Shown here piece by piece: positions 8,580 through 44,085 of a stretch of DNA of 64,000 bases. Source of the stretch: Luteolibacter flavescens (GTDB lineage: Bacteria > Verrucomicrobiota > Verrucomicrobiia > Verrucomicrobiales > Akkermansiaceae); the NCBI RefSeq assembly GCF_025950085.1, contig NZ_JAPDDS010000003.1, forward strand, positions 372,001 through 436,000. Direction: 5' to 3'. The notes beneath the pieces are model-generated. The model made no database searches. It saw only the letters and a program-made list of their open reading frames with translations, and had not been told where the DNA came from. Both the position numbers and the translations under genes were made by a program. Each line of letters begins with the position of its first letter. The stretch's first letter is position 1.

Positions 8580-9083
8580 ATGAAAAAGTTCATCATCGTC
8601 TCCAGCCTGGCTGTCTGGACCGCCTTCGTCGCCTACACTTCCTCACGGCAGGCCGAGTCCGAGCCCTCTGCTCCTGCCGGAGAGAGCGCAAAGCCCGCGA
8701 AGTCCCCGCAGAAGGTATCGCAGCGCGAAAGCGGGAGCCGCCGTGCAACCGCCACCGCGACTTCTGATCCGAAGCGACTTGCGACCGCACGCGAGACCAT
8801 CGAGGCGGCCGCCGTTCGCTACGAGCCCTCCGCCGTGAGGGACATCCGCCCGTGGCTGCTCGACAGCGACCCGGAGATCCGCCAGCTCGCCCGCGACGGC
8901 ATGGTGATGCTCGGCGAGGCCGATGCGATCCCCTTCCTGCGCGATGCGGCGAGCCGCCTGACCGATTCCGCCGAGGTCGCCTCATTGCACGAGGCTGCCG
9001 ACCTGCTCTCGCTGCCCGCGTGGTCCGACTCCGAGGAAGCCCGCCGGGTGATGGCCGAGATCGTGGCGGACGGTAATCTCTGA
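8580..9083 (+). CDS. Exported small protein with a HEAT-like region
   Basis: This 167-residue protein starts with a signal or anchor sequence (MKKFIIVSSLAVWTAFVAYT), followed by a Ser/Ala/Lys/Glu-rich linker (residues 25-75) and a helical C-terminal part. There, the SAVRDIRPWLLDSDPEIRQ and MVMLGEADAIPFLRDAAS segments look like one or two HEAT-type helical repeats. It probably works as a periplasmic scaffold, but no partner is apparent. It follows a terminator, so it has its own promoter. A 12-base palindrome (9091-9102) lies just after its stop. Confidence 0.8.
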   Translation: MKKFIIVSSLAVWTAFVAYTSSRQAESEPSAPAGESAKPAKSPQKVSQRESGSRRATATATSDPKRLATARETIEAAAVRYEPSAVRDIRPWLLDSDPEIRQLARDGMVMLGEADAIPFLRDAASRLTDSAEVASLHEAADLLSLPAWSDSEEARRVMAEIVADGNL

Positions 9084-9192
9084 GCCCCCTACGCGATCGC
9101 GTGATGTCGGAGGGGTAATTTTCGGGCAGGATCCGGGGTGGTCCAACGGTGATCCCCGTCGCCGCGACCTTCCCCCTTATCCCCCCGTTCCG

Positions 9193-9396
9193 ATGACCCT
9201 CGAACAGAGAATCGCCCAGGCGGCGCGTGCCGTCCTGTGCTCCGGCCCCGTGCCCGAACTTGTTCCCGTCCTTGCCGCCCGGCGTCCTGCCACGGCCAGC
9301 CTTGAGACCCAGCCGCATGCCCGTCACCGGCTGATCCTGGAATCCGGCGGTCTCCCGGTCGTCCCGCCATCCGCGAGACGCGAGCTCTGGATCTGA
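9193..9396 (+). CDS. Microprotein with C-terminal PSARRELWI, copy 1
   Basis: This 67-residue protein has no known domain, no signal peptide and no membrane segment. It starts with MTLEQRIAQAARAVL and ends with PSARRELWI. The next gene (9582) has the same plan: a similar start with a shared RI and an alanine-rich helix, and the same end pattern PxARxE[LV]WI. Shared ends with a divergent middle argue that both are real genes, related by duplication. An intrinsic terminator follows 18 bases after the stop. Function is unknown; the fixed C-terminal WI could be a binding or degradation tag or a modification site, which is inference. Confidence 0.65.
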   Translation: MTLEQRIAQAARAVLCSGPVPELVPVLAARRPATASLETQPHARHRLILESGGLPVVPPSARRELWI

Positions 9397-9414
9397 AGTT
9401 GCCCATCGGGCACG

Positions 9415-9451
9415 GCCCCGCCCGGGATTTCCTGACGGCGGGGCTATTCTT
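9415..9451 (+). terminator. Probable intrinsic terminator after microprotein copy 1
   Basis: GCCCCGCC (9415-9422) pairs perfectly with GGCGGGGC (9437-9444) across a 14-base loop and is followed by TATTCTTT. The weak T-run makes it a less certain terminator, but its position between two small genes supports it. Confidence 0.6.
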
Positions 9452-9581
9452 TCCAAGGGAGAGATAGGGGCAAACCACGCCCTACATGATCACGGAATGT
9501 TAGCATGTCCGAATTTCGTAATGATGTGCCTGTTCCCCATCAGGAACATCCCAGCGGAATCCCCAACCCAGTCTCTCCCCC

Positions 9582-9797
9582 ATGAGCACCCAGGAAAGAA
9601 TCACCGAATTGGCCATCGCCGCCCTTCGCTCGGCCCCCAAGGCCGTGACCCCGCGGCCAGCGACCTTCATGCTGCCCTTTGAAAAGCCGCAGTCCGTCGC
9701 CATCGCCAACGGGGTGAATGATGCGCGCTTCGAAAAGTCGGCCGGAGCCGCCTACCAGACGAACTGGCCCTTCGCGCGCCAGGAAGTCTGGATCTGA
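9582..9797 (+). CDS. Microprotein with C-terminal PFARQEVWI, copy 2
   Basis: This 71-residue protein is the second of the pair. It starts with MSTQERITELAIAALRSAP and ends with WPFARQEVWI; between them is a Pro/Ala/Asn-rich stretch with no known domain. Against copy 1, identities cluster in the first 18 and last 10 residues. It converges on the MntR gene, with only 12 bases between stop codons. No modification enzyme, transporter or immunity gene is next to either copy, so a RiPP precursor is possible but unsupported. Confidence 0.7.
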   Translation: MSTQERITELAIAALRSAPKAVTPRPATFMLPFEKPQSVAIANGVNDARFEKSAGAAYQTNWPFARQEVWI

Positions 9798-9809: not shown

Positions 9810-10253
9810 TCAGCCGCGGATTTCCCGGCTCTTTGCACGGGCTTCCTCCAGCAGGCCGGGCCGCGACTCCAGCAGGTCCGCCATGGCGCGGATGACCGCG
9901 AGCGTGGGCCGGGAGACGTGATGCTCCATGCCCTCCACGTCGCGGTAGATCGTTTCCTCATCGATGCCGAAGAGGCGGAGGAAGCGCGTCAGCGTCTCGT
10001 GGCGGTCGATGATGGCCTTGGCAATGCGGTGGCCCTCCTCGGTGAGGACGGTGCCGCGGTATTTCTCGTGCTTCACCAGCCCCTCGGTGTCCAGGCGGCG
10101 CAGCATGTTGGTCACGCTGGCCTGGGAGATGCCGAGGTTCTTCGAGATGTCCACCGCGCGGGCATAGCCCTTCGACTCGATCAGATGCAGGATCTGCTCG
10201 AGGTAGTCGTCCATGGCGACGGAGCCGCTGGTGCGCTGGGATCTCGCGGGCAC
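9810..10253 (-). CDS. mntR: MntR-type manganese-responsive transcriptional regulator (DtxR family)
   Basis: The protein is close in length (147 residues, or 134 from the ATG at 10214) to Bacillus MntR (142). The order is a winged helix with SQASVTNMLRRLDTEGLV and HEKYRGTVLTEEG, then a dimer domain. All six metal ligands of Bacillus subtilis MntR are in place: Asp and Glu in DDYLEQ (D8, E11), the His of RHETLTRF (H77), and Glu, Glu and His of VEGMEHHVS (E99, E102, H103). It should repress manganese uptake when the metal is plentiful. No transporter gene is nearby. The GTG at 10253 gives a family-like N-terminal extension; ATG 10214 is the alternative. Confidence 0.93.
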   Translation of the reverse strand: MPARSQRTSGSVAMDDYLEQILHLIESKGYARAVDISKNLGISQASVTNMLRRLDTEGLVKHEKYRGTVLTEEGHRIAKAIIDRHETLTRFLRLFGIDEETIYRDVEGMEHHVSRPTLAVIRAMADLLESRPGLLEEARAKSREIRG

Positions 10254-43673: not shown

Positions 43674-44085
43674 GATGGCAGATGGTGGATGGAGGATGGC
43701 AGATGCGACGAAAATGCCCCGAGATTGGCGAGGGATGAGCCGATGATTTCAGCCCTGGAGGGGCCAGAGAAATTAGCCGGTGGCGTGAGCCACCGGGTCT
43801 CGGTCGAAGAAAATTGCCGCGTCCCGAAGGGTCGCCGGACGGAGAAACCTTGTAGCACGCCATCGTCGGATGAAACGTACGGTGGGGTTATTCCCACCCT
43901 TCCGGCACCCCGCCGGGGTGCATTCCGCTTTTCCGTGCCTTTCCGGTGGCTCACGCCACCGGCTAATCTCCCCCGCCCCGCCGGGGCGAAAGATGCACCG
44001 CCCGATGCGGACGGGATCACGCGATTCGCCGATGGCATCTTATCTGCCATCCACCATCCGCCATCCGCGATCTCTGGACTCGTCC
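43674..44085. repeat. Non-coding inverted-repeat element inside the Bat-type operon
   Basis: The 412-bp stretch between the two VWA genes has no credible gene. It contains a 25-base perfect inverted pair (43772-43796 and 43943-43967, core GGTGGCGTGAGCCACC, itself palindromic) and, nearer the ends, GATGGCAGATGGTGGATGG (43675-43693) with an imperfect inverted copy around 44045-44070. Internal hairpins GCACCCCGCCGGGGTGC and CGCCCCGCCGGGGCG also occur. The ordered, mirror-like layout suggests a non-autonomous REP or BIME-type element. No transposase is present. Confidence 0.7.

Follow-up and report, generated by a model that had tools for sequence, protein, structure and literature searches.

Two microproteins encoded side by side in Luteolibacter flavescens, here called s1 and s2, lead through their promoters to a larger set of genes that carry the same DNA signature. 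On comparative evidence s1 and s2 are genuine protein-coding genes, and on the same footing they belong, as short members lacking the anchor, to a lineage-restricted family with a long form, b, of about 230-250 aa. We regard it as an evenly balanced proposition that they form the cytosolic arm of an undescribed regulon, met so far in two genera within a single verrucomicrobial family, where one activator binding a dyad at about -42 would act on membrane-anchored b, on the short forms s, on a further short membrane family c, on prepilin-like and polysaccharide genes, and on two families of C-rich small RNAs. The window, meaning the whole stretch of DNA analysed, is 64,000 nucleotides long; its own genome is G000, the other G-numbers are compared genomes, and the genus sample holds 18 genomes. 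Coordinates are collected in Table 1.

Coding evidence and the long form b

The initial annotation had described two same-strand open reading frames of 67 and 71 aa with matching ends and no named family. All of this has held up: the frames lie as listed in Table 1 with 185 bp between them, both termini are alike above shuffled controls, and s1 and s2 match no family in Pfam or NCBIfam (0 each at E up to 1) or in PHROGs. Aligned locally over the whole proteins, s1 and s2 give P = 0.0026 against shuffles. Phage tblastn matches of s2 (E 0.2-0.3) were taken as chance.

The same annotation had pointed to dN/dS and to the state of homologs and reading frames in relatives as ways of judging these genes, and both speak for them. 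Syntenic orthologs with the frame intact are present in G007 and G009 of the same genus, 74% and 70% identical for s2 and 52% and 62% identical for s1. For the three pairs of the close trio G000/G007/G009, dN/dS was 0.12, 0.18 and 0.21 for s2, 0.42, 0.49 and 0.39 for s1, and 0.22, 0.15 and 0.21 for b, all as NG86 estimates since YN00 gave no usable value for most pairs; third-position changes are in excess in the s1 and s2 comparisons of this trio. More distant s2 pairs gave 0.50 (G008-G006), 0.48 (G008-G000) and 0.59 (G006-G000). It is because of the intact syntenic orthologs and these dN/dS values that s1 and s2 are read as genes.

Their distribution is narrow. s1 is clearly present only in G000, G007 and G009 (3/57 genomes), and s2-type genes are found in the same three and, in more divergent form, in G003, G006, G008, G010 and G015. 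Genome searches with s2 and s1 at E <= 1 returned matches in 35 and 44 of the 57 genomes, mostly noise; accepted matches are those with E < 1e-3, plus that of G005 (E 0.02), for which the protein was inspected.

Table 1. Features of the s1/s2 locus, with positions in the window unless a contig is named, and sRNA-like units of each class
Feature	Position	Strand	Description	Basis
HEAT-like gene	8580-9083	+	Other flank of the b/s locus; same order in G007 and G008	PF13646 3.2e-5, below cut-off
s1 operator-like dyad	9091-9106	+	ACGCGATCGCGTGATG; 1 mismatch to ACGYGATNRCGTAATG; 102 bp before ATG	
s1 -10-like element CAGGAT	9127-9132	+	20 bp after dyad	Read by eye
s1	9193-9396	+	67 aa; N-terminal helix, divergent middle, ...PPSARRELWI	ORF; orthologs in G007 and G009
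s2 operator-like dyad	9484-9499	+	ACATGATCACGGAATG; 2 mismatches; 98 bp before ATG	
s2 -10-like element AATGAT	9520-9525	+	20 bp after dyad	Read by eye
s2	9582-9797	+	71 aa; N-terminal helix 3-16, PRPATFMLPFEK segment, ...WPFARQEVWI	ORF; s2-type genes in 8 genomes
mntR (DtxR family)	9810-10214	-	Convergent with s1/s2	PF01325 4.7e-19; PF02742 1.1e-13
Class A sRNA-like units	G000 contig C3, about 65-67 kb (L076, L077, L085)		L076, L077, L085; L169, L174, L180, L196, L201, L217, L096	
Class B sRNA-like units			L172, L205, L207, L222, L091, L164, L103, L165, L177, L159	

The N-terminus of s2 leads to the long form. In same-genus genomes it matches b and short proteins from residue 1 to residues 37-71 (E 4.5e-13 to 5.7e-4), the longer b proteins being matched by the first 37-57 residues. 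Nine b proteins of 228-252 aa were aligned and three more are found in G014, G029 and G299. Read by eye, b starts with a helix and a PKPATFM segment like those of s2; an Ala/Pro linker of low complexity and a basic stretch lead to one hydrophobic segment, the predicted membrane helix, and what follows is helical. Basic residues ahead of this segment, again by eye, suggest that the N-terminus of b is cytosolic. The AF2 model of b, of low confidence (mean pLDDT 59), has helices at 3-17, 82-123, 125-175, 187-198 and 205-231, with a long helix spanning the hydrophobic segment, and that of s2, also of low confidence (mean pLDDT 66.7), has a helix at 3-16 with the rest coil. The N-terminal helix is weakly amphipathic (moment P = 0.02 for b, 0.07 for s1 and 0.12 for s2). 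Not every b carries the full N-terminal pattern: that of G299 is without the s2-like N-terminus, in G014 and G029 this N-terminus has diverged, and the b of G005 is without PKPATFM.

A further family, c, was met by following the promoter dyad described below. These are proteins of 95-148 aa with one hydrophobic segment (by eye), and an s2-like start is seen in only 2 of the 7 aligned. A c profile matches 12 places in 11 of the 57 genomes, one of them the b of G012, at 4.8e-8; because of this match we take b and c to share ancestry. A c match in G017 (E 0.0013) has a stop inside. Neither b nor c has a Pfam, NCBIfam or PHROGs family above cut-off, and weak sub-threshold matches (Pfam E 0.0042-0.49; NCBIfam 0.14 for b) were taken as chance. 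Clear s2-type or b matches occur in 11 of the 18 genus genomes and were not seen in the other 7, and across the phylum b is found in 6 of 288 genomes, in the genera g1 and g13 (2/151 genera). The family is also present in the named relative Haloferula sp. BvORR071 and in three MAG records.

The two ends of the short proteins

Both ends of s1 and s2 are more alike than shuffled sequences would be. The last 10 residues, anchored at the end, score 32, which 0 of 100,000 shuffles reached, and residues 2-20 score 29 (P = 3e-5 by shuffles). Among s1/s2-type genes, the N-terminus is kept better than the C-terminal ending. The strict PxARxE[LV]WI ending occurs in s1 of G000 and in s2 of G000, G007 and G009; variants of it (PSARREVRI, PSPRRELRI, PFHAREVRI and PFCAREVWL) take its place in the s1 genes of G007 and G009 and the s2-type genes of G008 and G006, so that 3/3 s1 and 5/8 s2-type genes have it in one form or the other. 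It is absent from the s2-type genes of G003, G010 and G015, of which the first and last carry NAFDxAF-type tails and that of G010 another tail, and from all b and c proteins examined.

The initial annotation had proposed this ending as a fixed C-terminal recognition tag (a protease adaptor, binding or modification site) carried by an otherwise variable protein. That is distinctly unlikely. The similarity of the last 10 residues lies far above shuffles and the ending is retained in most of the short genes, yet its loss from three of the eight s2-type genes and its absence from b and c do not fit a fixed tag. The annotation had also proposed a search for the motif at other C-termini. Scanning the 18 genus genomes for RxE[LV]WI followed by a stop gave 7 matches, namely the s2 genes of G000, G007 and G009 and four places where an in-frame TGG stands and there is no true stop. 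No unrelated protein with the same ending was found, within a pattern that covers CGN arginine codons only and thus misses s1, AGR arginines and variant endings. As far as these sequences go, the ending is a secondary, sub-lineage feature of the short forms.

Gene order bears on where the short forms came from. The order in G008 is HEAT-like gene, b, s, mntR and that in the window is HEAT-like gene, s1, s2, mntR, and comparing the two suggests that s1 took b's place at the locus. One could go further and see in s1 and s2 partial duplicates of b (its operator and 5' end) in decay or close to neutrality, whose end motif would be a relic of the PxAxxxV that follows b's membrane helix. The position of s1 beside the HEAT-like gene would agree with this, as would the tandem arrangement of s with b in G003, G008 and G015 and the higher dN/dS values, those of s1 (0.39-0.49) and of distant s2 pairs (0.48-0.59). 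Of 143 windows of b compared with the s ends, the top-scoring is PSAQAKVAK, just after the membrane helix (PKARAEISA in G008); however, column permutations give P = 0.10 and 0.14 for this match, which is not significant. Moreover, s2 in the close trio is as constrained as b (0.12-0.21 vs 0.15-0.22) and 8 genomes keep an open s2-type frame, and we therefore hold decaying duplicates to be unlikely. A different source within b, the segment ELRAMIEE before the membrane helix, was rejected, as it falls outside the top four windows of every ending (ungapped comparison, b of G000).

A shared dyad and the units behind it

A 16-bp dyad, ACGYGATNRCGTAATG, lies 69-105 bp before the ATG of 21/21 b and s genes examined (nine b, eight s2-type, three s1 and one related short gene of G012). 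It has 0 mismatches in 3 of these genes, 1 in 7, 2 in 8 and 3 in the remaining 3, hence at most 2 in 18/21. The consensus was first read from these same upstreams, so this count is not independent of it; the genome counts are. Shuffled upstreams never came within 2 mismatches (0/4200) and reached 3 in 0.5%. Across the 18 genus genomes the exact dyad has 20 sites against 0 for the reversed pattern, and at <=1 mismatch there are 131 sites against 7 for the reversed control, with none in G013. Among 349 upstreams of neighbourhood genes, a control chosen around dyad sites and so not neutral, 7 have a site at <=2 mismatches, these being four b/c genes, two of which already belong to the 21, and RluD-, Wzz- and prepilin-like genes. 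The s2 dyad of G007 and G009 reads ACGCGATTACGGAATG, 96-97 bp before the ATG. Outside the seed set, the c genes at L148, L149 and L150 have sites with 1, 1 and 2 mismatches, that of L150 lying some 240 bp away, and the b genes of G014, G029 and G299 have sites with 3, 2 and 3 mismatches at 50-61 bp upstream. In an order-wide sample of 189 genomes, exact sites are confined to 9 genomes in 2 of 43 genera, g1 and g13, which are also the genera where b was met in the phylum sample.

The dyad keeps a fixed distance to a -10-like element. In the 131 windows with <=1 mismatch, xAxxxT stands at a spacer of 20 or 21 after the 16-mer in 86 (35 + 51), whereas over the 38 other spacers the count averages 6.5 and never exceeds 19. 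This peak would place the dyad centre near -42, with transcription starts taken from the -10-like element, and we infer from this geometry an activator overlapping the -35 position.

It was also observed that the leaders of the 21 b/s genes are C/A-rich and G-poor, with 7% G against 23% in 214 other genes. An SD-like motif is present in 0/21 of these leaders against 21/214 of the other genes, and initiation at b/s genes therefore probably proceeds without SD pairing.

Several kinds of unit follow the dyad. Downstream of sites in several genomes we found c genes, a Pfam-confirmed MarR paralog and genes that by eye resemble those for apt, prepilin, Wzz, small secreted proteins and a membrane protein. 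Many one-mismatch sites precede nothing recognisable, and the intragenic sites L175, L187 and L206 are probably chance. An exact dyad in G007 (L104, C19:29421) was seen 125 bp before a gene that by eye resembles the Wzz-type chain-length genes, a hint that the regulon of one species may include exopolysaccharide genes.

Among the loci examined, 22 sites with <=2 mismatches have CGTAAG after them and, beyond it, sRNA-like units marked by C-runs and by hairpins that look to the eye like terminators. These were sorted into two classes of 11 (Table 1 names ten of each), with L097, placed in class A, looking closer to class B. Class A units have a CGTAAGCRACGCC-like start, CUCCCC/CCCCCC runs and a terminator-like hairpin (by eye), and three of them stand in tandem in G000; the class A alignment has one weak helix region of 9 pairs with 88/99 cells paired. 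Class B units start with a CGTAAGGGAT-like sequence, and their long hairpin, whose loop holds a C-run, has 207/209 cells paired and 6 pairs covarying on both sides. No Rfam model matched (E up to 0.1) in any of 15 loci, members of either class being among them (L076, L085, L091, L096, L097 and L103, with L091 and L103 as the class B loci scanned). Elsewhere in the window, two Acido-Lenti-1 RNA matches lie about 150 bp apart on opposite strands, at 43751-43796 (-) and 43943-43988 (+), with 41.5 and 39.4 bits (gathering 37).

The dyad also bears on the neighbouring mntR. The initial annotation had noted that s1 and s2 converge on this gene, which is correct, and had left metal control as an observation on the neighbourhood; the present data lend that link no support. 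Of the 18 genus genomes, 11 encode a close MntR (at least 83% identical), a count that does not extend to the more divergent MntR of G013 and G017, and b or s lies convergent beside the close copy in 9 of the 11 (G000, G003, G006, G007, G008, G009, G010, G012 and G015). This is what one would expect if s1 and s2 belonged to manganese/iron control through MntR, a reading that we nevertheless consider extremely improbable. G004 and G005 have mntR without a b or s neighbour, the b genes of G000, G007, G009 and G010 and eight c loci inspected lie away from mntR, and the dyad also precedes prepilin-, apt-, Wzz-like and other genes (names by eye). Because b and c lie elsewhere and the dyad stands before many unrelated genes, metal control is not indicated; and because the distant b and c copies carry the same dyad with no mntR, the adjacency is read as inherited gene order, and mntR is not regarded as belonging to the system.

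Three families were considered as the regulator, and no protein that binds the dyad came out of this. CRP/FNR was rejected for the window's genome on one HTH model, HTH_Crp_2 (PF13545): at 1e-5 it is present in 10/18 genus genomes and absent from G000 and G003-G009, all of which have sites, 7 of these 8 having five or more. Across the 12 genus upstreams read, the conserved MarR copy has no site, its closest approach being 5-7 mismatches; this set leaves out G002 and the core copies of G006, G008, G011 and G015, and 3/21 MarR loci were unparsed. Only the MarR paralog of four genomes (G008, G011, G006 and G015; L259, L260, L261 and L262) has a dyad in its own promoter, 109-116 bp before the ATG. 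In G003, G010 and G015 the HEAT-like gene has an ECF sigma gene as its neighbour (L124:6720-7244, L125:6563-7099 and L121:10497-11024; Pfam-confirmed in L124 of G003 only), and in G003 and G015 this sigma gene and another gene sit just before b. The sigma gene is absent from the listed loci of G000 (the window), G007, G008 and G012, and the distance from the dyad to the -10 is too long for the dyad to be a -35.

Proposed role and known systems

Taken together, we tentatively favour, at slightly less than an even chance, a reading that makes s1 and s2 short, soluble versions of b, induced together with it and docking through their N-terminal helix, with one activator serving b, s, c and the sRNA-like units. 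Its footing is the homology with b, the selection on the short genes, and the dyad with its fixed -10 spacing. One activator binding near -42 would switch on all these units together, and the short forms would carry b's N-terminal docking helix without the membrane anchor. In the cytosol they may compete with or complement b for its partner, or bind b itself, and would set what share of that partner stays at the membrane.

Another role is brought to mind by the sRNA-like units that share the dyad, one in which s1 and s2 would be small RNA-binding proteins acting with the C-rich transcripts, as CcaF1 does with the CcsR RNAs in Rhodobacter. The dyad common to protein and sRNA-like units speaks for this, as does the class B hairpin with its pairing and covariation. 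We still think this analogy very unlikely to hold: s1 and s2 match neither DUF1127 nor any other family, the conserved helix has no excess of basic residues (by eye), and in the loci seen the protein and sRNA units lie on separate transcripts.

A simple DNA signature, read from two microprotein promoters, links unannotated small proteins, a long membrane relative and two sRNA-like families. It singles out genes and promoters for testing in named relatives, Haloferula sp. BvORR071 among them, and should the short forms compete with or regulate b, they would be a clear case of microproteins arising as anchor-less versions of a neighbour gene. To our knowledge, Verrucomicrobiota are poorly explored for small proteins and small RNAs. 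Searches of open-licence papers for Luteolibacter or Haloferula regulation, verrucomicrobial promoter motifs, sRNAs and the motif letters gave nothing on this system among the entries listed.

Among known systems, the Rhodobacter one resembles the present case in several respects, its CcsR RNAs being C-rich. Rhodobacter sphaeroides switches on the DUF1127 protein CcaF1 and the sRNAs CcsR1-4 together in a stress network (PMC10253847, PMC8307010), and CcsR and ccaF1 form one precursor (PMC8307010). The likeness is that of a small protein and homologous small RNAs under a common switch, co-induction here being suggested by the shared dyad, and tandem sRNA-like copies occur here too (G000 contig C3). 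The systems differ in that s1 and s2 have no DUF1127 match (0 in Pfam and 0 in NCBIfam at E up to 1), that the units here are separate and share a dyad whereas Rhodobacter has a single CcsR-ccaF1 precursor, and that no alternative sigma factor has been shown for the b/s system.

At class II activator promoters of the CRP/FNR type, a dyad of CRP length is centred near -41.5. The dyad described here is of the same length and its centre would fall near -42, going by inferred rather than mapped starts, but PF13545 is unmatched in 8/18 genus genomes including the window's own. A more general kind of system is also known, in which short paralogs share the interaction segment of a full-length membrane protein and thereby modulate it. 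The likeness is that the s forms carry the N-terminal segment of the long membrane form b; here, though, the family is an unnamed one of two genera and the interaction is a proposed one.
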